Assembly: GCA_002070605.1 (NCBI GenBank)
Contig: MWDO01000031.1
Coordinates: 1-33,508 of the forward strand
Length of the DNA stretch: 33,508 bases
Direction: 5' to 3'
Source of the DNA: Spirochaetes bacterium ADurb.Bin133
GTDB taxonomy: Bacteria; Spirochaetota; GWE2-31-10; MWDO01
Position 1 is the first letter of the stretch. Each line of letters opens with the position of its first letter. The position numbers and the translations under genes were made by a program. The notes under the pieces are model-generated. The model had not been told where the DNA came from. It saw only the letters and a list, made by a program, of their open reading frames with translations, and searched no databases. Shown here piece after piece: positions 1 through 32,749 of this stretch.

Positions 1-1
1 T

Positions 2-37
2 GAGGCTGTATTTATAGACGATAGATTAAAATGTTAA
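2..37 (+). CDS. 3' end of an unknown gene running in from the left (partial)
   Basis: The frame beginning at base 2 reads EAVFIDDRLKC and then a TAA stop at 35-37. It is identical to the C-terminus of the 21-residue frame in the next tandem unit. It may be the true 3' end of an upstream gene whose tail was copied into the neighbouring unit. Too little is visible to name it. Confidence 0.35.
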   Translation, partial: EAVFIDDRLKC

Positions 38-84
38 AAAAAAACAAAGATTATCGTTGACTTTTACCATAGATGGATAAACTT

Positions 85-150
85 ATGAAAAAATTTATTG
101 ACAAGGAAATTTATGAGGCTGTATTTATAGACGATAGATTAAAATGTTAA
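85..150 (+). CDS. 21-residue reading frame inside the tandem duplication
   Basis: An ATG at 85 opens a frame ending with the same EAVFIDDRLKC tail found at 2-37. A TTGACT hexamer (57-62) and a weak TAAACT (78-83, 15-bp spacer) precede it, but there is no strong ribosome binding site. It could be a real micro-peptide. It could equally be the broken 3' remnant of the preceding gene, created by the 113-bp duplication, and I favour the remnant. It has no recognisable domain. Confidence 0.25.
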   Translation: MKKFIDKEIYEAVFIDDRLKC

Positions 151-180
151 AAAAAAACAAAGATTATCGTTGACTTTTAC

Positions 181-226
181 CATAGATGCGTCGATTTCTT
201 CGTCTCAAAAAACCGATAGGATTACC
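181..226 (+). repeat. degenerate end of the CATATG-palindrome element
   Basis: The segment starts CATAGATGCGTCGATTT, close to the CATATGCGTCGATTT half-site used by the intergenic elements elsewhere in the window. It ends AAAAAACCGATAGG, which matches the right arm of the element before topB (29754-29768). It directly follows the second tandem unit and precedes the large surface-protein gene. Confidence 0.5.
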
Positions 227-3622: not shown

Positions 3623-5244
3623 TGAAAGTCGCTATTCTCAATCATCCGTTTACGGATTTTTACTCTTCGCCGAAAAGAATGAACTGCGGCGCGCTTTACT
3701 ATTTGGGAGAAATTGTAAAACCGCATACCTATTGCGCGTTTGATCTTGTCCGGAATAAAAAAAAAGAGATACGGATACCGAATAGTCTTAGATATTTATC
3801 CGAATATACCGCGTCGGATAAAACTAATTACTCGTTTTTTCAGAAATATTATAAATTCGGCGACGCCGGACTACTCGACCCCGATAAATTCGTCGCGGAA
3901 GAGTTTGACTGCGTTTTAGTTACGACCTTTGCGTTTTGTTATTTTGAGGGGCTGAAAGAGCTGATAGAGTATATAAGAAAATTTTATCGCAAACCGATCA
4001 TTGTCGGCGGTTCCGGCGTTTCGTCAAATCCGGGTTATTATTTAGATAATCTTGATATAGACTTTGCGGTAAAAGGTCCCGCGGAGTTATCGTTATGTAA
4101 AATTCTTGATTCGATTGAGGAGGGGAGAGAAGTCGATTATAAGGGAGTTTTTTCAAAAGAGAAAAGAACCGCCTCAGATAATTGCGCCGATTATAGCTTC
4201 AAGCCGTACGTTTTTTTACGCGGCGATACTCTTATGTTGCAATTAACGCGAGGTTGTCCGAAAGACTGCGCTTACTGCTCGATAAAACTGAATAGCGGCG
4301 ACGTCTACAGAAAATCGCCGACGGATTTGTTAGAGAGCGCTCTACAAACGCGCAGGCTTGACGGCGCAAAGGTTTATCGAATCAACTTTGAGGACGACAA
4401 TCTTACTTACGATTGGGAATATTTTGAAAATGTTATGGAGATATTGAAAAAAAACGTTGGGAGTTTTACTTTCAGTTTTGAAAACGGCGTTGATTTTACG
4501 ACTTTGGACGAACGAAAAATATATAAACTTATAGAAAGCGGAATTTCTCAATGGAATTTATCGTTGACCTCTGTAAATTACGATACGTTGAAAAACTCTA
4601 AAAGGAATTATATTCTTGAGCTTTACGATAGTATTATGAATATTATTGAAAAATATAATTTACCGGTTATAACCTATTTTATTTCCGGACTGATCGGCGA
4701 CAAAAGCGATAACATTTTGGCTACCATACTATATTTAGCCGGAAAGAGGACGGCTCTCGGTATCTCTTCCTTTTATCCTGTACCGAATACAAAAGCCGTT
4801 TTGGGTTTGAAAGAGGAGATTGTCCCGGAATTGGCGAAGGGATCGTCGTTTTACAAATGGGGCGACGTTTCTACAAAAAAACTTATTACTCTGTTTATGT
4901 TGTCGAGATTTGTCAATAGCATAAAGACGGTTACCGTTAAAGAATGGATGGATTTTTCTGTTAAAATTTTTAAAAAAAATGCGGACTTTTATATAACCGG
5001 CGCTATGTCTGATAAAACGGCTTTATCAAAAACGGGAATTCTCGTTTCTATAATAAACGAGGATATTTACTATTGTTGCAAAGTTGGCGAAGAATATATT
5101 TTTAGAAAGCGCGATTTGGACGATCAAATTATTAAAAGATTTTTTTTCTCAATAAAAAACGATATAATTATCAAAAATAGCGGCGGAGAAGTTATTTCCG
5201 GAGAGATATGGAGCGGTTTATGGGAAAAGGCGTATCGGTCGTAA
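3622..5244 (+). CDS. B12-binding-type radical SAM protein
   Basis: The 540-residue protein has a Rossmann-like N-terminal half (about 1-190; IIVGGSGVSSNPGYY near 127-140) resembling the cobalamin-binding domain of class B radical SAM enzymes. The radical SAM core follows, with the cluster motif LTRGCPKDCAYC (Cys212, Cys216, Cys219). The DxHxxG cobalamin ligand motif is not evident, so B12 use is uncertain. The product binds a 4Fe-4S cluster and SAM; its substrate cannot be told from sequence. Its ATG overlaps the stop of the surface-protein gene, and its 3' end overlaps the glycosyltransferase gene. That context suggests modification of a glycan, lipid or envelope component. Confidence 0.85.
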   Translation: MKVAILNHPFTDFYSSPKRMNCGALYYLGEIVKPHTYCAFDLVRNKKKEIRIPNSLRYLSEYTASDKTNYSFFQKYYKFGDAGLLDPDKFVAEEFDCVLVTTFAFCYFEGLKELIEYIRKFYRKPIIVGGSGVSSNPGYYLDNLDIDFAVKGPAELSLCKILDSIEEGREVDYKGVFSKEKRTASDNCADYSFKPYVFLRGDTLMLQLTRGCPKDCAYCSIKLNSGDVYRKSPTDLLESALQTRRLDGAKVYRINFEDDNLTYDWEYFENVMEILKKNVGSFTFSFENGVDFTTLDERKIYKLIESGISQWNLSLTSVNYDTLKNSKRNYILELYDSIMNIIEKYNLPVITYFISGLIGDKSDNILATILYLAGKRTALGISSFYPVPNTKAVLGLKEEIVPELAKGSSFYKWGDVSTKKLITLFMLSRFVNSIKTVTVKEWMDFSVKIFKKNADFYITGAMSDKTALSKTGILVSIINEDIYYCCKVGEEYIFRKRDLDDQIIKRFFFSIKNDIIIKNSGGEVISGEIWSGLWEKAYRS

Positions 5245-7303: not shown

Positions 7304-7813
7304 TTAATATGCGTATTTGGGATAATTTTCGATTACGAGCGTGTGTAATAGCTGTTTTCGAGCGGTTATATTTAACAGTTGTGTCATTTTATCCAAAAAG
7401 TCGTTCTTCAACTTATCAATCCTCAATTTCTTACCAACGATCTCAAGAAATCCTTCCAACCCATATTTTACAACGCCGTTATAGAAAAACAGGATAATGT
7501 CGCGAACCGTCGATGCCATACCGAATTCGTTATACAAAGAATGCCATCTTTTTATTTGAAGATAGTCCGCTTCGTTAATTCTGAGGTATTTATCCACCCT
7601 TTTATCGTCGGAGCTATCTATAACGGCGTATTCGGAGCGATGATTTCCGATTATTCTTTTCATTTTTGGGATTTTTTTGTCAATAAGGTGAAACATAGTT
7701 TCAAATAACTCGCTGAACGTATTAATTTTGAATTCTTTTAACAGAAAATCTATGACGTTCTTATTCATAGACTCTGATACTATAAAATGGAATAGATGTT
7801 TTTTGTTTTTCAT
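7304..7813 (-). CDS. unknown protein, paralog 1 of a repeat-associated family with RHH-like N-terminus
   Basis: I do not recognise this 169-residue protein by name. It is about 90% identical to the product at 31987-32502. Residues 5-45 follow the beta-strand/helix/helix pattern of ribbon-helix-helix DNA-binding proteins: a strand around LFHFIVSE, a helix from MNKNV to KEFKI, then TFSELFETMFHLI. The rest is mostly helical and includes YLQIKRWHSLYNEFGMASTV. There is no signal peptide or membrane segment. The start at 7813 has GGAG 8 bases upstream; a longer frame to 7969 crosses the conserved promoter region and is rejected. Palindromic CATATG half-sites lie about 120 bp upstream, an arrangement shared with paralog 2. 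A DNA-binding role is inference. Confidence 0.8.
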   Translation of the reverse strand: MKNKKHLFHFIVSESMNKNVIDFLLKEFKINTFSELFETMFHLIDKKIPKMKRIIGNHRSEYAVIDSSDDKRVDKYLRINEADYLQIKRWHSLYNEFGMASTVRDIILFFYNGVVKYGLEGFLEIVGKKLRIDKLKNDFLDKMTQLLNITARKQLLHTLVIENYPKYAY

Positions 7814-7930
7814 AAAGTTTTCTCCTTTTTCTTTTATATATATAACAACTAAAAGTAGAAAACTCTTTACAAAAACTTGGATAAATTTTAAATAAATGAC
7901 AAATAATTTACTAATTAAAAATATCTGTTC
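7814..7930 (-). promoter_or_regulatory. conserved upstream region of paralog 1
   Basis: About 115 bp upstream of the start are closely conserved with the region upstream of paralog 2 (32503-32629). The shared parts include the AAAGGAG ribosome binding site, the block TTGTAAAGAGTTTTCTACTT on the minus strand, and a TTATATATA segment. Promoter elements are probably within it, but the -35/-10 spacing is not canonical (TTGTAA and TTATAT, about 21 bp apart). Confidence 0.45.
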
Positions 7931-7996
7931 CATATGTGTCAATTTTATTCTTAACATCATATGTGTCAATTTCCTCCCGATAAACCGGCGGGGCGC
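7931..7996. repeat. CATATG-palindrome element, copy A (partial)
   Basis: Two half-sites of the form CATATGTGTCAATTT start at 7931 and 7958. They are followed by the arm AAACCGGCGGGGCGC (7982-7996). No left arm is present; the sequence toward paralog 1 shares AATTAAAAATATCTGTT with the left interior of copy B. Confidence 0.8.
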
Positions 7997-8065
7997 AACA
8001 AGGACGACGGCTAAGATGATAATATATTTTCGAATATAAGCCGCTTAAGCTGGGGAGATATGAAG

Positions 8066-8090
8066 AAAAAAAAACAGCCCTGTCGGACTG
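8066..8090 (-). terminator. intrinsic terminator of the tRNA-Lys/tRNA-Glu transcript
   Basis: On the minus strand CAGTCC (8090-8085), loop GACA and GGGCTG (8080-8075) form a 6-bp stem with one G-U pair. A run of eight or more T residues follows. It starts just after the tRNA-Glu 3' end. Confidence 0.8.
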
Positions 8091-8095
8091 CCTTT

Positions 8096-8167
8096 TATCG
8101 CATAGGGGAGTCGAACCCCTCTTGCCGGGATGAAAACCCGGTGTCCTAACCGATAGACGAATGCGAC
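8096..8167 (-). tRNA. tRNA-Glu (anticodon UUC)
   Basis: The minus strand folds as a standard tRNA. The acceptor stem is GTCGCAT with ATGCGAT (G-U first pair) and the discriminator is A. The D-arm is GTCTATCGGTTAGGAC, the anticodon stem CCGGG/CCCGG has loop TTTTCAT giving anticodon TTC, and the T-arm is AGGGG TTCGACT CCCCT. CCA is not encoded. It lies 4 bp after tRNA-Lys in the same transcript. Confidence 0.95.
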
Positions 8168-8171
8168 GCAT

Positions 8172-8244
8172 TGAGATGCGAAGGAATCGAACCTTCGACC
8201 CACGCCTTAAAAGGGCGTTGCTCTACCGACTGAGCTAGCATCTC
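8172..8244 (-). tRNA. tRNA-Lys (anticodon UUU)
   Basis: The minus strand folds as a tRNA with acceptor stem GAGATGC/GCATCTC and discriminator A. The D-arm is GCTCAGTCGGTAGAGC, the anticodon stem ACGCC/GGCGT has loop CTTTTAA giving anticodon TTT, and the T-arm is GAAGG TTCGATT CCTTC. CCA is not encoded. It is the first gene of a two-tRNA transcript with tRNA-Glu. Confidence 0.95.
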
Positions 8245-8278
8245 AAATCGTTAAGTTTTTTCTTAAAGATTGCTTAGG

Positions 8279-8307
8279 AAGTTATCACATTTACGTAGAA
8301 AAGTCAA
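8279..8307 (-). promoter_or_regulatory. possible promoter of the tRNA pair
   Basis: On the minus strand TTGACT (8307-8302) lies 17 bp from TAACTT (8284-8279), within GTGATAACTT. The -35 is good and the -10 is weak. The position, 35-63 bp upstream of tRNA-Lys, is right. Confidence 0.4.
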
Positions 8308-8328
8308 TAAAATATTTAAAAATTAATG

Positions 8329-8542
8329 TACCCCGTCAGTTTTTTGGGGAATTAAAAATATCTGTTTCATATGTGTCGAATTTTTCATCAGGAAGCGACG
8401 CGCCGTATATAGCTCCATATGTGTCAATTTATTCGTCGGGGAGTAGCCGCGATGGTATGCAACACATATGTGTCAATTTTTTATCGAGGAGCGGCGCGGC
8501 GCATATGCGTCGATTTTCTTACCCCAAAAAACTGACGGGGTA
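8329..8542. repeat. CATATG-palindrome element, copy B, with perfect 21-bp terminal inverted repeats
   Basis: Bases 8329-8349 (TACCCCGTCAGTTTTTTGGG plus G) are the exact reverse complement of 8522-8542. Between them are four half-sites starting at 8368, 8416, 8465 and 8502. Each reads CATATG(T/C)GTC(A/G)A.TTT, with a GC-rich GAGGAGCGGCGCGGCG block before the last. Both arms end in TA, which is compatible with a TA target site. There is no transposase inside, so it resembles a MITE. It fills the gap between the tRNA pair and the PilZ-like gene. Confidence 0.92.
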
Positions 8543-11396: not shown

Positions 11397-12605
11397 ATGG
11401 ATAAGAAAGAAGAAATATCGCAAGAAGTATTTAAAAAAAACATCGCTCTTTTTGAAGAGGTATTAAATAATAGCTCTGATTATCTGTTCTATTTTAGTCC
11501 CGATCCGGACGCCGTTGGGATTAGTATAGCGCTGGCTTTGTATTTGAGAGAGCGCGATAAGAATTGCGTTATATTTTTGCCTGAAGGATGCGATCCAAAT
11601 TTGGATTTCTTGTTTGATATCGCCGTTTACAACAAGATTATTATTTCGGGCGATATAGACTACATAGAAGAATATGTTTCAAAAACCTGCCCCGTTTTAA
11701 TATCGTGCGATACTCCTACGCACTTTTTACTTTACGAATTTGATAAAGTAAATTCGTTTTGGAAAAAAAAGGAAGACCGCAAATGTATTGAAATTGATCA
11801 CCACTTTGGCGGAGATAGCGAACAGATTTTTGAAGAGTCGATAGTTTTCTATTTCAATACAAATTCTTGTTGCGAGATATTATGCGAAATTCTGGATTAT
11901 ATGAGTAAAAACGGGAAGAAAAAACAGAGCGTCGACAAAACTTTTCCGCGAAATATCGTGCTCTCCTTATTAGTCGGAATTTGCTTTGACACGCAATTTG
12001 GTAAATTCGTAGTGAACAAAGAGAGTTATGATAAATGGTTTGGTTTTTTAGAGGAAAGATTGCAAAAATTGACGTGGAGTAATACCAAAAATATAAATAA
12101 CGCTAAATTAGTGTTTGACACCATTAGCAGAATGAACGAGGTGAAAGAGAAAGCGTTGCTTAAATTGCTAAAGGGCGTAGACGTTATTAACGGAGTAGGT
12201 TTGCTAATAATACCGCCTATTGATAAATACGAGTCGATAGCGGAATCAAAAGATTCAACCTGTATTTTAAGCAAAGTAATTCTTGATCTATCCAATATGG
12301 TTCCGGAATATTCCGGGGCTATCGGGATTCTGACTTATTACGATACGGTTTACGAACTCTATTATTTGAAAATCAGAAGGTCTCATTCGTTTAAAAAATA
12401 CGATCTTCGCGAATTGGAAGATCTTTTTAACGAAGTGTTTGGAGTATATTTTCTGGGAGGGGGAGGGCACGAGGGCGCTACAAGTTTTAGAATCGCCGCA
12501 ATTCAAAGGGAAGATTTTTTAAAAAAAATACGTTTGTTTCACAAGAAGTTTGCGTCAAACGTAAAAGAACTTACAAAGGACGCAAAACCGACGATCAATT
12601 TATAA
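11397..12605 (+). CDS. DHH/DHHA1 family phosphoesterase (NrnA-like)
   Basis: The 402-residue protein carries the DHH superfamily motifs in order: FSPDPDAVG (motif I), ISCDTPTH (II), EIDHHFGGD (III) and ICFDTQFGKF (IV). A DHHA1 domain follows, with the substrate-binding loop GGGGHEGATSF near residue 360. Relatives degrade nano-RNAs, pAp or cyclic-dinucleotide-derived pGpG with manganese. Because it follows an HD-GYP gene, clearing linear dinucleotides is an attractive role, but this is inference. A TATAAT at 11363-11368 lies in the intergenic gap, so it may have its own promoter. It is cytoplasmic, with no signal peptide. Confidence 0.85.
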   Translation: MDKKEEISQEVFKKNIALFEEVLNNSSDYLFYFSPDPDAVGISIALALYLRERDKNCVIFLPEGCDPNLDFLFDIAVYNKIIISGDIDYIEEYVSKTCPVLISCDTPTHFLLYEFDKVNSFWKKKEDRKCIEIDHHFGGDSEQIFEESIVFYFNTNSCCEILCEILDYMSKNGKKKQSVDKTFPRNIVLSLLVGICFDTQFGKFVVNKESYDKWFGFLEERLQKLTWSNTKNINNAKLVFDTISRMNEVKEKALLKLLKGVDVINGVGLLIIPPIDKYESIAESKDSTCILSKVILDLSNMVPEYSGAIGILTYYDTVYELYYLKIRRSHSFKKYDLRELEDLFNEVFGVYFLGGGGHEGATSFRIAAIQREDFLKKIRLFHKKFASNVKELTKDAKPTINL

Positions 12606-12662
12606 ATATTTAAAACCGGATTACATGTTTTTTTTAAATTGATTTGGCGAGTTTTATAATTT

Positions 12663-12696
12663 TATATTCAAAACGGGAATTCCCGTTTTGAATATA
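12663..12696. promoter_or_regulatory. 34-bp perfect palindrome upstream of the esterase lipoprotein
   Basis: The 17-bp arms are exactly complementary around AAAACGGGAATTCCCGTTTT. It sits 40 bp before the start codon. It could be an operator, or act as a terminator for the DHH gene, although no T-run follows. The right half, CCCGTTTTGAATATA, recurs after topB at 31932-31946. Confidence 0.7.
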
Positions 12697-12735
12697 CTAA
12701 AATACAAATATGTTTTTATTTTTACGGAGGTTTAT

Positions 12736-14301
12736 ATGAACAAATTAGACAAATTACTGTTGAGCTTTTTTTTATTCGCTTTTTTATTGATTTCGTGCGC
12801 GAATACTCATGACGATGTCGGCGACGGCGTTACTACGACTTCGACGAGCGCTTCAACGACTACGACTTCAACGTACGTTTCGACGACTACTACCACTATT
12901 TTACAATTTACTTCAGTTACCGCCAATAATAGACTTATAACTTATAAAAACTGTACCAATAACTATAATCTACTAACTCGCGATATTAAAGTCTATTTAC
13001 CGGCGGGATACGATCCGTCGGGCGACGCGACGTATTCGGTAGTCTATATGCACGACGGGCAGAATCTTTTTTTCGCCGGCGGTCCGTTCGGTTCGTGGCG
13101 CGTTGAGAAGGCGTACGACGGATTGATAGCTCAAGATCTTATAGAGCCGCTAATAATAGTCGGTATTAATAACACAAACGATAGAATTCCCGAATATACG
13201 CCGACTTTAGACTCCAACTTTGTCGGTTCGGGTAAGGGAGAGAGTTATGTAAATTTTATTATTAACAATCTTATACCGTTTATAAATTCCAATTATAAAA
13301 CAAAAACCGGTCCGGAAAACACGGCGATTATAGGTTCTTCTCTGGGCGGGCTTATATCTTTATACGCGTCGTGGAATCATCCGGACGTATTTGGCAAAGC
13401 CGGTTGCCTCTCTTCGTCGTTATGGTGGGACAAGAATAACTTGCTGAATCAAGTTCTTGCTTATACCGGAAGTAAAAAGTCTGTTAAATATTGGATAGAT
13501 TGCGGTACTGCGGAGGGGAACGACGGAGACGATCAAGAAGCCGACGCCGATAACGACGGCAGAACTTATATGATAGAGGACTCAAGAACTTTGTCTTATC
13601 GACTAAGCTCGCTGGGTTGGCAAGATAACGTCGATCTCTGTTATAAAGAGGACGTAGGCGCGGCGCATAACGAAGCGGCGTGGTCGGGTAGAATCGACGA
13701 CGTTCTATATTTCTTTTTTAGAAAAAGCGCGCCGGCGCTTACCGGTATTAATACTCGACTTTTTGCAAATAAAATCGGGCTAACGGGTATAACAAAAACT
13801 TACGCGTCGACGGATTTGAAGTACGAAAACGATTTTTCAATAACGCAGGTTGCGACAAATTTAACGGTTTCCGACGAAACCGTCGCGACAGTCGACAATG
13901 CTCTTTACGGTAAAATTACGCCGCTAAAAGCGGGGACGGCCAAAGTTTCCGCAAGTTACGGCGGTTTTACTTCAGAAGCGGACTTAGAGGTCGTAGAAGA
14001 TCTGCCGGTAATGATAAGAGTTTTCTTTAACGTAACTTGCCCGAATACCGGAGGCGCGGCTAATATCTATATAGCCGGCGATGGCGGACCGGTGCCGCAG
14101 GATAAGATATGGAATCCTTCCGGTTTTGCGTCGACCGCAAAGATTAGTTCGACGAATTACCATTTTTTGTTTAATATGAAGAGAAATACCTCGTTTTCGT
14201 TTAAATTTACAAAAAACGGAAGTTGGGAATCCAGAGGTTCGAACAGAATATTTAGTTCCGCTGAAGACGCAACCGCGGATTTTACCGTAACTTCTTGGTA
14301 A
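12736..14301 (+). CDS. esterase-family (PF00756-type) lipoprotein with C-terminal Ig-like and beta-rich domains
   Basis: The 521-residue product is a lipoprotein: MNKLDKLLLSFFLFAFLLISC puts the lipidated cysteine at residue 21. A Ser/Thr-rich linker follows (about 34-54), then an alpha/beta-hydrolase domain of the feruloyl-esterase/esterase D type. VVYMHDGQNLF and the nucleophile elbow IIGSSLGGL (Ser202) are clear, and AAHNEAAW supplies the catalytic histidine. An acidic DGDDQEADADNDG loop near residues 255-270 may bind calcium. C-terminal modules comprise a Big2-like domain (VSDETVATVDN to AGTAKVSASYGG) and a beta-rich, possibly starch-binding-like, domain. It likely deacylates a polysaccharide or siderophore-type ester at the cell surface. 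ATG 12736 has GGAGG 5 bases upstream. Confidence 0.85.
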   Translation: MNKLDKLLLSFFLFAFLLISCANTHDDVGDGVTTTSTSASTTTTSTYVSTTTTTILQFTSVTANNRLITYKNCTNNYNLLTRDIKVYLPAGYDPSGDATYSVVYMHDGQNLFFAGGPFGSWRVEKAYDGLIAQDLIEPLIIVGINNTNDRIPEYTPTLDSNFVGSGKGESYVNFIINNLIPFINSNYKTKTGPENTAIIGSSLGGLISLYASWNHPDVFGKAGCLSSSLWWDKNNLLNQVLAYTGSKKSVKYWIDCGTAEGNDGDDQEADADNDGRTYMIEDSRTLSYRLSSLGWQDNVDLCYKEDVGAAHNEAAWSGRIDDVLYFFFRKSAPALTGINTRLFANKIGLTGITKTYASTDLKYENDFSITQVATNLTVSDETVATVDNALYGKITPLKAGTAKVSASYGGFTSEADLEVVEDLPVMIRVFFNVTCPNTGGAANIYIAGDGGPVPQDKIWNPSGFASTAKISSTNYHFLFNMKRNTSFSFKFTKNGSWESRGSNRIFSSAEDATADFTVTSW

Positions 14302-22074: not shown

Positions 22075-22224
22075 TCCGTCAGTTTTTTTGGGGGAAGAAA
22101 ATGACACATATGATGTTGCGGAGAAAATTCGACGCATATGGGGATAAAAATTAAATTAACGCATATGTGTCATTTTAAAGGAACTGTCTCAAAAGTTGCT
22201 ATTCCCCCCCAAAATACCGACGGG
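22075..22224. repeat. CATATG-palindrome element, copy C
   Basis: The left arm CCGTCAGTTTTTTTGGGGG (22076-22094) and right arm CCCCCCCAAAATACCGACGG (22204-22223) are imperfect inverted repeats. CATATG cores lie at 22107, 22135 and 22162. The first two have their GTC half on the opposite strand (ATGACACATATG, TTCGACGCATATG); the third is nearly two-sided. It fills the gap between the convergent cyclase and PilZ genes and could form a large transcript hairpin. Confidence 0.85.
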
Positions 22225-23599: not shown

Positions 23600-25018
23600 A
23601 TGAGTTATATAGTTGCAAAATTTGGCGGTTGGGCTAATTCAACTGCTGATAGAGTTAAGAGATCGGCGGATCTGTTTGAAAAAAATCCCGATAGAAGGAT
23701 TAAAATTAATTCGGCAATAGGCAAAGTGGAAGGGCTTCCAAAGGTTACCGATTTACTTATCGAAGGCGCTGAAAAAGCGCTTAAAGACGGGGCGTTCCCT
23801 CAAGATATTTACGATAAGATAAAACTTAATCACTATTCTGTTTTTGAACCTCTGGGTATTGGTAGGGATAAAATCGACGAAGTAATGACTATTTTGAAAA
23901 GTTATATCGAAAGAAAAGAGGAACTCTCTAAAGATAACTATAGGGCTTTAGTCGTTGGATCAGGCGAAGAGCTGTTTACTCGATTGGACTATATTTATAT
24001 GAAAGAGATCAGAAATATGAACGTAAGATACGTCGATCCCAGAGAAATCGGGCATTTTTTGGAAGGCAATCCGCTTGACGGCAAAATATTGGAAGAGACT
24101 TACGATAATCTTTCAAAATTAAGGCGCTACGAGGAGATAATTCTTTATCCGGGGTTTTTTGCCGTCGATAAAAAGGGAAGACCGATGTTGTATAGCAGGG
24201 GCGGAACCGATAAGACTGCGGCCGACGTTTCGGCGGCAGTAGGCGCGGATATGTATGAAAATTGGAAAGACGTGGACGGAGTCTATTCGGCGGATCCAAG
24301 GATTGTTCAAAACCCCGAGTTGATGAATGAAGTTACTTATAAAGAGATAAGGGAATTGTCGTATATAAGCTTCAACGTGCTGCATCAAGAGGCGATGATA
24401 CCGGTAATGAGAGCTAACATTCCAATTTGCTTAAAGAATTTGATGAAACCGGAAAGTTCTGGCACGACCATTATTAATAAAAGAGAAATTTTAAATAACA
24501 GACCGGTCGTAGGTATAGCCCATATAGAGGATATGTTTTTTGTAAATATTGAAAAACTTTTGATGAACGAAGAGATAGGTTTTGCGGATAAGTTAACGGC
24601 AATCTTCAAAGAGCATAATATAAATATAGAGCAGATAACTACCGGTATCGATAGCATGTGCGTCGTCGTTTCCAGCAAACAGTTTCGCGAAAAAACGGTT
24701 TATACCGGAGTAGCCGAGGGGCTGAGAAAAAAAATAGATATAGACGAGTTTTCTCAATACGCTCAAAACAAGCTACATTCGGACGTTTTTAAAATAAGGA
24801 AAGATAAAGCTCTTATCTGCGTCGTCGGCGAAGGGATGAGGCGTAGCGTCGGCACGTTATCCAGAATTGCGGGAGTTTTATCGAAAAACGATATAAATAT
24901 TGAGATTATAGATCAAGGACCGAGCGAAAGAAACGTAATAATCGGAGTCGATTGTTCAAAAGATAAAGACGCCGCAAAAAAAGCGGTAAATTTTATATAT
25001 CAAGAGTTTTTTAATTAA
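23600..25018 (+). CDS. lysC: aspartate kinase
   Basis: The 472-residue protein begins MSYIVAKFGGWANS; KFGG is the conserved kinase motif, with W-A in place of the usual T-S. SRGGTDKTAADVSAAVGAD and WKDVDGVYSADPRIV are the aspartokinase catalytic blocks. Two ACT domains follow (about 315-380 and 395-470; MCVVVSS..., LICVVGEGM), usual for feedback control by lysine or threonine. It phosphorylates aspartate at the head of lysine, threonine and methionine synthesis. AGGAG sits 6 bases upstream of the ATG. The stop codon falls inside AATTAAAAACATTTGTTTCA, a sequence shared with the interior of repeat elements A and B, so its last codons may derive from or adjoin an element insertion. Confidence 0.93.
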   Translation: MSYIVAKFGGWANSTADRVKRSADLFEKNPDRRIKINSAIGKVEGLPKVTDLLIEGAEKALKDGAFPQDIYDKIKLNHYSVFEPLGIGRDKIDEVMTILKSYIERKEELSKDNYRALVVGSGEELFTRLDYIYMKEIRNMNVRYVDPREIGHFLEGNPLDGKILEETYDNLSKLRRYEEIILYPGFFAVDKKGRPMLYSRGGTDKTAADVSAAVGADMYENWKDVDGVYSADPRIVQNPELMNEVTYKEIRELSYISFNVLHQEAMIPVMRANIPICLKNLMKPESSGTTIINKREILNNRPVVGIAHIEDMFFVNIEKLLMNEEIGFADKLTAIFKEHNINIEQITTGIDSMCVVVSSKQFREKTVYTGVAEGLRKKIDIDEFSQYAQNKLHSDVFKIRKDKALICVVGEGMRRSVGTLSRIAGVLSKNDINIEIIDQGPSERNVIIGVDCSKDKDAAKKAVNFIYQEFFN

Positions 25019-25230
25019 AAACATTTGTTTCATATGCGTCGATTTTTTTTGACGCATATGTTGCAATTTCTCATCGGGGAACGGCGCGCCGCATATGCGT
25101 TAATTTCTATCCACCATATGTGTCAATTTATTTTGGCTCGACTCGATTTTCCTCTTCTCATATGCGTCGAATTCCCTCCTTGATACCATATGTGTCAAAT
25201 TTCCCTGCCTTAAAAGACCGACGGGGCGCA
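25013..25230. repeat. CATATG-palindrome element, copy D
   Basis: Six CATATG cores start at 25031, 25055, 25092, 25115, 25159 and 25187, in both orientations. A GC-rich block TCATCGGGGAACGGCGCGCC lies before the third. The right arm AAAAGACCGACGGGGCGC is at 25213-25230. There is no left arm. The left border AATTAAAAACATTTGTTTCA overlaps the lysC stop codon. Confidence 0.88.
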
Positions 25231-25610: not shown

Positions 25611-26681
25611 TTATTTAACCTTTCTCTGCTTAAAAAATGATTTTGGTTCGATTTTCTTCCTTATTGAGTCAATTATAGTCGAATCGTAAGCGTCGGTCTC
25701 TATTAAAACTTTGTATAGCCCGTCGACGTCTTTAAAAATACAAAATTTAAAACCGGGAATTCCCGTTTTTTTGTCAAGATAGAAATTAATTGCGTTAGCA
25801 AGCATCGCAAAAGAGCCAATTTGTATATAATTTTTATCAACTTTAAGATTAGGGATAAAATAAGATTCTTCGGGGGTTTCAATGAGTAATTCGACTTCCG
25901 GTTCTTCTACCGAAACGGCTTCTTCGTCGATAGGATCTTTATCCGCTACAACGCTAACCTCTGAATTATCGGAAGAGTAAAATTCGTCGTTTTCATCAAA
26001 TTCGTCAATTTTTATCGAACTATCGTCGGATAAGTTTTCGACCGACGCGATTGCGGTTTCCGAAGAAGAGCTATCGTCGATTTTTGGAATAGTATTTGGA
26101 TCAAACGACGAATACTCTTTCAACGTCCATTTTGTCATTAATTCTTCTTTATCGGTTTTTTCCAATTCGTAAAGATCAAAAAGTCCGATGTTTTTTCGAT
26201 AGAGGCGATACCCGACTGTTGAAAGGTCGTCGGACTCTATATCCACTTTGACAAAGTCGTCCGTAACGCTTGAGACCGTATTTATTCGATAATTAGAAGT
26301 CCATTTATCGCCAATTTTAGGATTTAGCGGAAAAAACTTTGTTATTACATATTCCGTATCGATTTTCTCGTAAAAAGAGATAAAACCTTCGTTTTCAATA
26401 AAATACCAACTCCCGTCGAGCTCTTTACACTCTACGTAAAAAGCCGCGACGCCTTCCAGATTGTTTTTAACGTCCGTTACGCTATAGAGACCTTTGATCT
26501 CCCAAGTAAAGTCAGTTTTTGCTCCATCCATTTCAAGCGTCCAACTCCATTTTGCTCCGGAAAATAAGGGAAAATATGAGTTGCCTTTTAATACGCCGTC
26601 GCCGTCTAAATTTTTAATATCTTGAGAAAAAACTGCCGAGCATAGGCTCAATAGTAGAATGATATGGAAATATTTTTTCAT
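25611..26681 (-). CDS. exported SPOR-domain protein
   Basis: The 356-residue protein has a signal peptide (MKKYFHIILLLSLCSAVFS before QDIK). A beta-rich N-terminal domain (about 25-190; GAKWSWTLEMDG, NPKIGDKW) is followed by an acidic, Ser/Asp/Glu-rich linker (about 200-275). A C-terminal SPOR domain (about 285-356) contains YIQIGSFAMLANAINFYLDK and DGLYKVLIETDAY. SPOR domains bind peptidoglycan stripped of stem peptides at division sites, so the protein probably sits in the periplasm at the septum. AGGGAT precedes the ATG. It is transcribed divergently from rsmE. Confidence 0.82.
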   Translation of the reverse strand: MKKYFHIILLLSLCSAVFSQDIKNLDGDGVLKGNSYFPLFSGAKWSWTLEMDGAKTDFTWEIKGLYSVTDVKNNLEGVAAFYVECKELDGSWYFIENEGFISFYEKIDTEYVITKFFPLNPKIGDKWTSNYRINTVSSVTDDFVKVDIESDDLSTVGYRLYRKNIGLFDLYELEKTDKEELMTKWTLKEYSSFDPNTIPKIDDSSSSETAIASVENLSDDSSIKIDEFDENDEFYSSDNSEVSVVADKDPIDEEAVSVEEPEVELLIETPEESYFIPNLKVDKNYIQIGSFAMLANAINFYLDKKTGIPGFKFCIFKDVDGLYKVLIETDAYDSTIIDSIRKKIEPKSFFKQRKVK

Positions 26682-29537: not shown

Positions 29538-29563
29538 ATTATAATATAAAAAAAACTTATTTT

Positions 29564-29772
29564 GCGCTTCGTCGGTTTTTTGGGGCGAGATAAATTTGAC
29601 GCATATGCGCCGCTCCCCGATAGAAAATGACACATATGAGTCTCATAGCCGCCGCGCCGCGCCATGATATAAATTGAAACATATGCGTCAAATTAAAGCT
29701 CCATATGTGTCAAAAATAAATTTGACACATATGCGCCGCGCCGCTCTTCGATGAAAAAACCGATAGGGCGCT
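29564..29772. repeat. CATATG-palindrome element, copy E
   Basis: The left arm GCGCTTCGTCGGTTTTTTGG (29564-29583) and the right arm AAAAAACCGATAGGGCGC (29754-29771) are imperfect inverted repeats. CATATG cores start at 29602, 29633, 29680, 29702 and 29728. GC-rich blocks (GCGCCGCTCCCCGAT, GCGCCGCGCCGCTCTTCGAT) are in inverted orientation relative to copies B and D. The right arm ends about 20 bp before the topB -35. Confidence 0.88.
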
Positions 29773-31919: not shown

Positions 31920-31946
31920 AAAACGGCAATTCCCGTTTTGAATATA
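31920..31946 (+). repeat. partial copy of the CGGGAATTCCCG palindrome after topB
   Basis: AAAACGG, loop CAATTC and CCGTTTT form a 7-bp hairpin. The right half CCCGTTTTGAATATA is identical to the right half of the 34-bp palindrome at 12663-12696. It directly follows the topB stop and may act as a weak terminator. Confidence 0.55.
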
Positions 31947-31954
31947 ATAATATA

Positions 31955-31986: not shown

Positions 31987-32502
31987 TTATGCGGAGCGGA
32001 CGTATTTTGGGTAATTTTCAATTACGAGCTCGTATAATAGCTGTTTTCGAGCGGTTATATTTAACAGTTGTGTCATTTTACCCAAAAAGTCGTTTTTCAA
32101 TTTATCAATCTTTAATTTCTTACCAATAAGCTCAAGAAATCCTTCCAACCCGTATTGGACAACGCCGTTATAGAAGAACAGTATAATATCTCGAACCGTT
32201 GAAGCCATACCAAATTCGTTATACAAGGAATGCCATCTTTTTATTCGAAGATAATCCGCTTCGCTGATTCTAAGATATTTATCCAGTCTTTTATCGTCTG
32301 TATTGTCTATAACGGCGTATTCGGATCTGTGATTCCCGATTATACTCTTCTTTTTTGGCATTTTTTTGTCAATAAGACGAAACATAGTTTCAAATAACTC
32401 GCTGAATGTATTAATTTTGAACTCTTTTAGTAAGAAATCTATGACGTTATTATTCATAGATTCCGATACTATAAAATGGAATAGATGTTTTTTGTTTTTC
32501 AT
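31987..32502 (-). CDS. unknown protein, paralog 2 of a repeat-associated family with RHH-like N-terminus
   Basis: The 171-residue protein differs from the product at 7304-7813 at roughly 17 positions plus the last few residues (KYVRSA versus KYAY), so it is about 90% identical. It has the same strand-helix-helix start (KKHLFHFIVSE, then TFSELFETMF). A conserved middle block HRSEYAVID is followed by helices including RIKRWHSLYNEFGMASTVRD. GGAG lies 8 bases upstream of the ATG. The homology includes the upstream 120 bp and the adjoining CATATG half-sites. Both copies are intact, suggesting selection or recent duplication. The function is not known; DNA binding at the adjoining palindromes is a hypothesis. 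Confidence 0.8.
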   Translation of the reverse strand: MKNKKHLFHFIVSESMNNNVIDFLLKEFKINTFSELFETMFRLIDKKMPKKKSIIGNHRSEYAVIDNTDDKRLDKYLRISEADYLRIKRWHSLYNEFGMASTVRDIILFFYNGVVQYGLEGFLELIGKKLKIDKLKNDFLGKMTQLLNITARKQLLYELVIENYPKYVRSA

Positions 32503-32629
32503 AAAATTTTCTCCTTTTTTTTTAATATTTCTTTAATATATATAACAACTAAAAGTAGAAAACTCTTTACAAAAATTCGTATAATTTTTTAGAAAATGAC
32601 AAAAAATTTGCTAATTAAAAAAATTGACA
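32503..32629 (-). promoter_or_regulatory. conserved upstream region of paralog 2
   Basis: The region matches 7814-7930 upstream of paralog 1, including the block TTGTAAAGAGTTTTCTACTT on the minus strand and the TTATATAT segment. An extra ATTTCTTTA-type insertion lies near the ribosome binding site. Confidence 0.45.
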
Positions 32630-32727
32630 CATATGCGTCGATTTTCATCGAGGAGTACTGCGTAGCATATGCGTCGAATTTTTATCCTTACTCCATATGC
32701 GTTAATTCCCAAAAAACCGACGGGGCA
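32624..32727. repeat. CATATG-palindrome element, copy F (partial)
   Basis: The first core (32630) is nearly two-sided: TTGACACATATGCGTCGA. Further cores start at 32666 and 32694. The block TCATCGAGGAGTACTGCGTA lies between the first two. The right arm CCCAAAAAACCGACGGGGC is at 32708-32726. There is no left arm; paralog 2 occupies that side, as paralog 1 does for copy A. Confidence 0.85.
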
Positions 32728-32749
32728 AATATCTTTCTTATTTTCTGTC

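Follow-up and report, generated by a model that had tools for sequence, protein, structure and literature searches.

REP and REPIN elements, as presented in two studies (PMC8266576, PMC3733652), are palindromes of 20-50 nt that reach high copy numbers and lie mostly in intergenic DNA. The second study adds a CGTC-tagged group of REPs, present in Spirochaetes among five phyla, which seems to do without a dedicated transposase (PMC3733652). In Acinetobacter, short inverted-repeat dif sites bracket small modules, some of them toxin-antitoxin modules, and these sites measure 11+6+11 bp with TTATGTTAAAT-type arms (PMC12907356). Quasipalindrome template switching, a mutational process documented in two further papers (PMC8604942, PMC7202029), homogenises the arms of inverted repeats.

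We analysed a window of 33,508 nucleotides, contig C31 of a 2.985-Mb assembly in 103 contigs (G000), together with a sister species of the same genus (G001, 86% complete). Over 3,012 bases G001 matches JAGOCL010000106.1 (Spirochaetes bacterium isolate Go_SlDig_bin_318) without a difference, which names the phylum. At 12663-12696 the window carries tatattcaaaacgggaattcccgttttgaatata, a perfect spacerless dyad of 34 bp with 17-bp arms, and chance predicts ~5e-6 such dyads per window and 5e-4 per genome at the GC content of 37.9% derived from a 417-kb sample. A sequence-only reading of this DNA had already singled out the palindrome as rare by chance, and had noted that it lacks a T-run and that its right half recurs exactly at 31932-31946. 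All of this held: no T-run at the palindrome exceeds TTTT, the region 12560-12800 contains no terminator-like site, and the right half CCCGTTTTGAATATA does recur as described, though within a larger copy, AAAACGGCAATTCCCGTTTTGAATATA, that starts at 31920. The features of the window relevant here are as follows.

11397-12605, plus strand: gene of a DHH-family protein (PF01368, E 8e-8), upstream context.
About 12640-12714, no strand: stretch including the palindrome that is missing from the orthologous intergenic region of G001 C61; its edges are uncertain by several bases in this AT-rich DNA.
12663-12696, no strand: 34-bp perfect palindrome, a two-armed copy of the dispersed repeat.
12736-14301, plus strand: esterase lipoprotein gene (Pfam Esterase PF00756, E 4e-28), downstream context outside the repeat.
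31920-31954, plus strand: single-armed copy after the topoisomerase gene, AAAACGGCAATTCCCGTTTTGAATATAATAATATA.
25754-25765, no strand: core CGGGAATTCCCG within coding sequence, devoid of the TTTTGAATATA arm and kept in G001 C356; excluded from the family.
5029-5048, no strand: degenerate core AAAACGGGAATTCTCGTTTC within coding sequence; likewise excluded.

The earlier suggestion that the palindrome may represent a second repeat family was borne out by genome-wide searches. The exact core CGGGAATTCCCG occurs 85 times in G000 (reversed control, 0) and 32 times in G001 (reversed control, 1), and its half-site CCCGTTTTGAATATA was scored 104 times in G000 at ≤1 mismatch (49 forward and 55 reverse; reversed control, 0 and 2), a count that each two-armed copy enters twice; the motif is thus by no means confined to two occurrences. 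Exact copies in these numbers in the assemblies of two species refute a chance palindrome or an assembly artefact, a reading in favour of which nothing was found and to which we attach virtually no probability. A first-order model expects 0.05 cores in the 417-kb sample, where 30 were observed. The core was present in 9 of the 41 genomes searched, with one or two copies in each of the seven other than G000 and G001 and none in the remaining 32, and among the genomes searched high copy number is found only in one Spirochaetota genus. Viral contigs yielded one exact match to a 22-bp core pattern, whose surroundings lack the outer arms. Our reading covered 97 places in G000, of which 84 carry one or both arms (≤2 mismatches) and 74 have the exact core (of 85), and 52 places in G001, of which 33 had an arm and 32 the exact core.

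We consider it rather likely that these copies make up a REP-like, non-autonomous dispersed palindromic repeat, high-copy only in this genus among the genomes searched, of which the esterase copy is an incidental member; rather than acting as a switch for the esterase, the palindrome is probably of a selfish or structural kind. The family resembles REP/REPIN elements in comprising many intergenic palindromes of 20-50 nt. Unlike REP/RAYT systems, it shows no conserved GTAG/CGTC tag beside the hairpin, its dyad has no spacer, and no free-standing Y1 (RAYT) transposase was found in the two genomes. Counted up to 26 nt from the 20-bp core, GTAG/CTAC accompanies 8 of 84 armed copies of G000 and 2 of 33 of G001, and CGTC/GACG only 23 of 84 and 9 of 33, respectively; the latter is therefore not a family tag. 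In this the repeat differs from the CGTC-tagged REPs, with which it shares the apparent lack of a dedicated transposase. The single Y1 (HUH) transposase-like domain of G000 (L173; C2:35627-35917) sits in a long frame that by eye resembles an Eco57I-type restriction-methylase, and its 3.3-kb locus contains neither core nor arm motif; the 86% complete G001 yielded none. A scan limited to the 104 neighbours of 181-560 aa (27 are longer) revealed no shared transposase or recombinase among the best 25 of 190 families. The hairpin would be the route along which copies spread, in transposition or in recombination, and the search for a mobilising enzyme found none. Copies settle in intergenic DNA irrespective of gene direction. 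We recognised no paper in the literature searched as describing this repeat, and this palindrome family, which has neither REP tags nor a recognisable transposase, is new to us. It adds to the known repertoire a family that is high-copy in one uncultured spirochaete genus and whose arms change together.

Genomic position was assessed in a sample composed of contigs C3, C6, C10, C11 and C12 plus the window (417,645 bp, 88.6% of it called coding by a simple codon-score script). All 29 copies with the TTTTGAATATA arm in this sample are intergenic, against a non-coding share of 11.4% (p 5e-28). A looser gene caller placed 3 of 84 armed copies of G000 and 2 of 33 of G001 within frames that are likely false. 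The 29 copies distribute as 12 tandem, 11 divergent and 6 convergent, versus 56%, 32% and 12% of intergenic length; neither the convergent (p 0.13) nor the divergent share (p 0.30) departs significantly from expectation, and in 22 single-armed copies the arm points toward a gene start 12 times and toward a stop 10 times. Neither a promoter nor a terminator role predicts these positions.

This distribution bears on two regulatory readings. That the repeat would be the operator of a global regulator or nucleoid protein, a dimer of which binds the symmetric core, accords with perfect symmetry, intergenic location, restriction to one genus, a copy number of ~100 and mirrored changes between arms. 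However, copies are neither enriched upstream of genes nor depleted between convergent ones (6 of 29), only one arm is present in 71 of the 84 armed G000 copies, mirrored sequence in single copies extends up to 27 bp per arm, and the palindrome is missing at the esterase ortholog, all of which leave an operator distinctly unlikely. We regard as very unlikely a bidirectional intrinsic terminator, which would explain a GC hairpin with A4/T4 flanks and the long T-runs that some armless cores carry, e.g., at G001 C481:2766 between convergent-looking ORFs. At the window copy there is no GC stem followed by a U-tract, divergent regions are not depleted of copies (11 of 29), and the arm GAATATACTAA is not a T-run. 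For the armed copies, intrinsic termination was rejected on the grounds of their position classes and of the window copy being free of terminator-like sites.

At the window site itself, the likely esterase start codon, assigned by hand, is the ATG at 12736 behind ggagg, 39 bases past the end of the palindrome. The closest promoter-like match, TTTAAA-16-TATAAT at 12633-12660, ends 2 bases 5' of the palindrome, and such matches nearby number 2 versus 1.3 expected from shuffles. An RNA hairpin fold is predicted for the stretch 12640-12735 (z -3.45), and an Rfam scan of 12500-12850 gave a best score of 20.4 bits against a gathering score of 100, i.e., no annotated RNA family.

We compared this site with the sister species, where the esterase ortholog starts in C61 and continues on C322 with gene start and ggagg conserved. 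Alignment across the interval that separates the DHH gene from the ribosome-binding site revealed that ~75 bp (window 12640-12714), palindrome included, are missing from G001. The palindrome was thus either gained in G000 or lost in G001 since the species split. The missing stretch spans ~75 bp, not 34, and no clear target-site duplication was seen in the diverged flanks. The palindrome at C3:50315 is also missing in G001 from an otherwise aligned region with both flanks aligned. The sequence-only reading had hinted at a link to the esterase promoter, which found no support in these comparisons, as copies fill the intergenic classes approximately by length and the sister species has no palindrome before the same gene; an esterase operator or promoter element was rejected on family distribution and the palindrome-free ortholog. 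Conversely, for 10 of the 33 armed G001 copies there is a counterpart in G000 no more than 130 bp from an aligned flank, two of them sharing C3:40272, a figure that over-counts conservation, given that the G000 sequence compared was centred on palindrome sites, and that indicates that many copies are old. Five others have an aligned flank with no G000 copy within 600 bp, and the remaining 18 were left unassigned. The family mixes old copies with recently gained or lost ones.

At the centre of each copy is a core, CGGGAATTCCCG, that can form a hairpin and has A-rich and T-rich sequence on its sides; to this are added one or two outer arms GAATATACTAA..., the defining arm reading TTTTGAATATACTAA outward from the core. 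Both-sided arms occur in 13 copies of G000 and 5 of G001, forming perfect dyads of up to 54 bp. In G000, the 71 single-armed copies bear a GATAAAA arm on the opposite side (44 of 71), a further shared tail (32) or CATATG within 200 bp (63), while the figures for the 28 single-armed copies of G001 are 2, 1 and 1, respectively, which indicates that in G000 the palindrome has fused into mosaics of other repeats that are largely missing from G001. Most armless cores fall within frames called as coding (9 of 13 in G000, 11 of 19 in G001); armless cores were not counted as repeats because several are conserved between both species as coding sequence. Several of the in-gene cores at G000 C9:3850 and C52:13490 and at G001 C182:671 and C295:2125 are alike and by eye seem to code for a K-R-E-F-P motif shared by proteins of one multicopy family.

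Deviations from the consensus tend to be mirrored between the arms of one copy. In the two-armed copies, 18 in all, both arms share 5 of the 12 deviations found at positions 1-17 (mean of 0.9 with re-paired arms; 3 of 5000 shuffles reach this value), and 13 of 54 at positions 18-24 (re-paired mean 5.8; 3 of 5000), and the effect fades past position 24 (28 of 149; reached by 442 of 5000). One of the 18, G000 C43, carries a core mismatch. The orthologous palindromes at G000 C43:16760 and G001 C485:2793 are distinguished by a change that both arms share (TATACTAA and TATAATAA), and at G001 C366:131 the core itself is altered on both sides (CAGGAATTCCTG). These mirrored variants suggest either arm homogenisation or selection for symmetry, both of which would look alike. 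We favour polymerase template switching between the arms (quasipalindrome correction), which would keep both arms of a copy identical, over a protein with a fixed recognition site, because mirroring in single copies extends past the family consensus; here, this mutational process is inferred from the mirrored variants. The co-changing arms provide a record, left in nature, of how the arms of bacterial palindromes are homogenised.

The genes that neighbour the copies raise the possibility that palindromes act as chromosomal cassette crossover sites, where bracketed segments (toxin-antitoxin modules and an acetyltransferase cassette) would change places through the core, much like the cassettes of integrons or the dif modules, a reading that we consider unlikely. 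Armed copies less than 2.6 kb apart form 18 pairs (14 in G000, 4 in G001), 16 of which enclose genes, the other two being an interval of 198 bp whose sole ORF has 37 aa and a gene-free one of 137 bp. Toxin-antitoxin-type genes occupy 10 of the 16: Phd/HigB-like, though resting on matches below Pfam cut-offs; ParE/RelB; DUF433/DUF5615 twice, which we take to be a toxin-antitoxin pair; ParE; HipA with HTH; ParE with RelB-like and PIN; ParE with RHH; HicAB; and YoeB with Phd. The other six hold an acetyltransferase with DUF5071 (one), a small ORF without a Pfam match (one) and other genes (four). Counted by Pfam, at least 21 of 54 small neighbours in both genomes are of toxin-antitoxin type versus 3 of 44 controls from G000 only (Fisher p 3e-4), a count in which partners of one module enter twice and one antitoxin (RHH) was added from a separate scan; without DUF433, DUF5615 and Polbeta the comparison is 15 versus 3 controls (p 0.009). 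However, toxin-antitoxin genes and repeats may merely accumulate in the same variable islands.

Comparison of the two species provided further evidence on both sides. The 2-kb acetyltransferase/DUF5071 segment at G000 C10:22234-24217, between two palindromes, is replaced by one palindrome in G001 C481, although homologous recombination between identical copies could also have deleted it. A ParE/RHH segment of G001 C196 is missing along with both its palindromes at the matching place in G000 C11, where other DNA is found. The genes around C3:40272 have been separated in G001, where each of them adjoins a palindrome copy; their two new neighbours, however, lack a palindrome at the corresponding places in G000 (C34, C12), and a simple two-palindrome exchange is therefore not demonstrated. 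Also against a cassette system, the DUF433/DUF5615 module of C45 sits in another context in G001 C57, where the 3.7 kb that we read contain no core at ≤3 mismatches, and arm orientation relative to bracketed modules is mixed.

Integron attC sites are foldable, and their cassettes carry toxin-antitoxin and GNAT cargo, features that the palindromes and their bracketed genes recall. We judge still less likely, at about the level of the operator, an unrecognised chromosomal system, integron-like but lacking a recognisable integron integrase, by which Spirochaetota would shuffle cassettes of toxin-antitoxin and acetyltransferase genes; the arms of two sites would recombine in the symmetric core, and lone palindromes such as the esterase copy would be scars. 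Unlike attC sites, the palindromes are scattered in both orientations, and no integron integrase (TIGR02249) scored over the cut-off in either genome, nor in 14 controls, so that the search had no positive control; the best G000 match, to a 373-aa frame on C69, is split in two and scores 111.5 bits in one piece and 92.2 in the other, the cut-off being 265. Proteins that this search picked up as tyrosine-recombinase-like lie on C2, C14 and C69. Short inverted-repeat sites that bracket small modules, toxin-antitoxin genes included, also liken the family to the Acinetobacter dif modules. A search with what we take to be the dif pattern (11-6-11, centre TATAAN6TTATGTNAA) returned 49 matches in G000 versus 54 in the reversed control and 51 versus 77 in G001, and none of the matches listed for G000 coincides with a palindrome. 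We file the family as REP-like, and not as REP/RAYT, attC or dif, because the defining features searched for in these systems were not found here. The frequent bracketing of toxin-antitoxin genes is the most interesting loose end, and modules proven mobile at the palindromes would constitute a cassette system outside integrons and dif modules.

A Borrelia-type hairpin telomere, considered in view of spirochaete ancestry and the TTAGTATA motif, was set aside, since many internal copies do not fit telomeres; the Borrelia motif presumably also runs in the opposite direction.

Several other repeats were evident in these genomes. At G001 C14:2444, C14:3097 and C324:1104, a bulged-dyad subfamily (about ATTCAAAACGGGAATTGCCGGATTTGAA) forms direct repeats around the HicAB and YoeB modules. 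A second abundant palindrome of 12 bp, CGACAATTGTCG, has 13 copies in the 417 kb of G000 sample contigs and by eye adjoins the GATAAAAG arm in several of them. Mosaics of other short repeats (CATATGTGTCAATTT, CCCCGTCGGTTTTTTGGGG, GGCGCGCC-type hairpins) lie in the window at 7900-8540, 22090-22140, 25000-25200, 29560-29760 and 32610-32730, and many single-armed palindromes elsewhere in the genome are fused into mosaics of this kind. An ORF of ~190 aa without a Pfam match, found on the minus strand at 7304-7969 and 31987-32502, is amplified to 135 matching pieces across G000, with dozens of copies, most of them at 75-92% identity and often at contig ends; in G001 a single copy reaches 76%, and about ten others fall at 36-41%. 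Finally, window positions 1-188 contain a 75-bp stretch that is repeated exactly 113 bp downstream.
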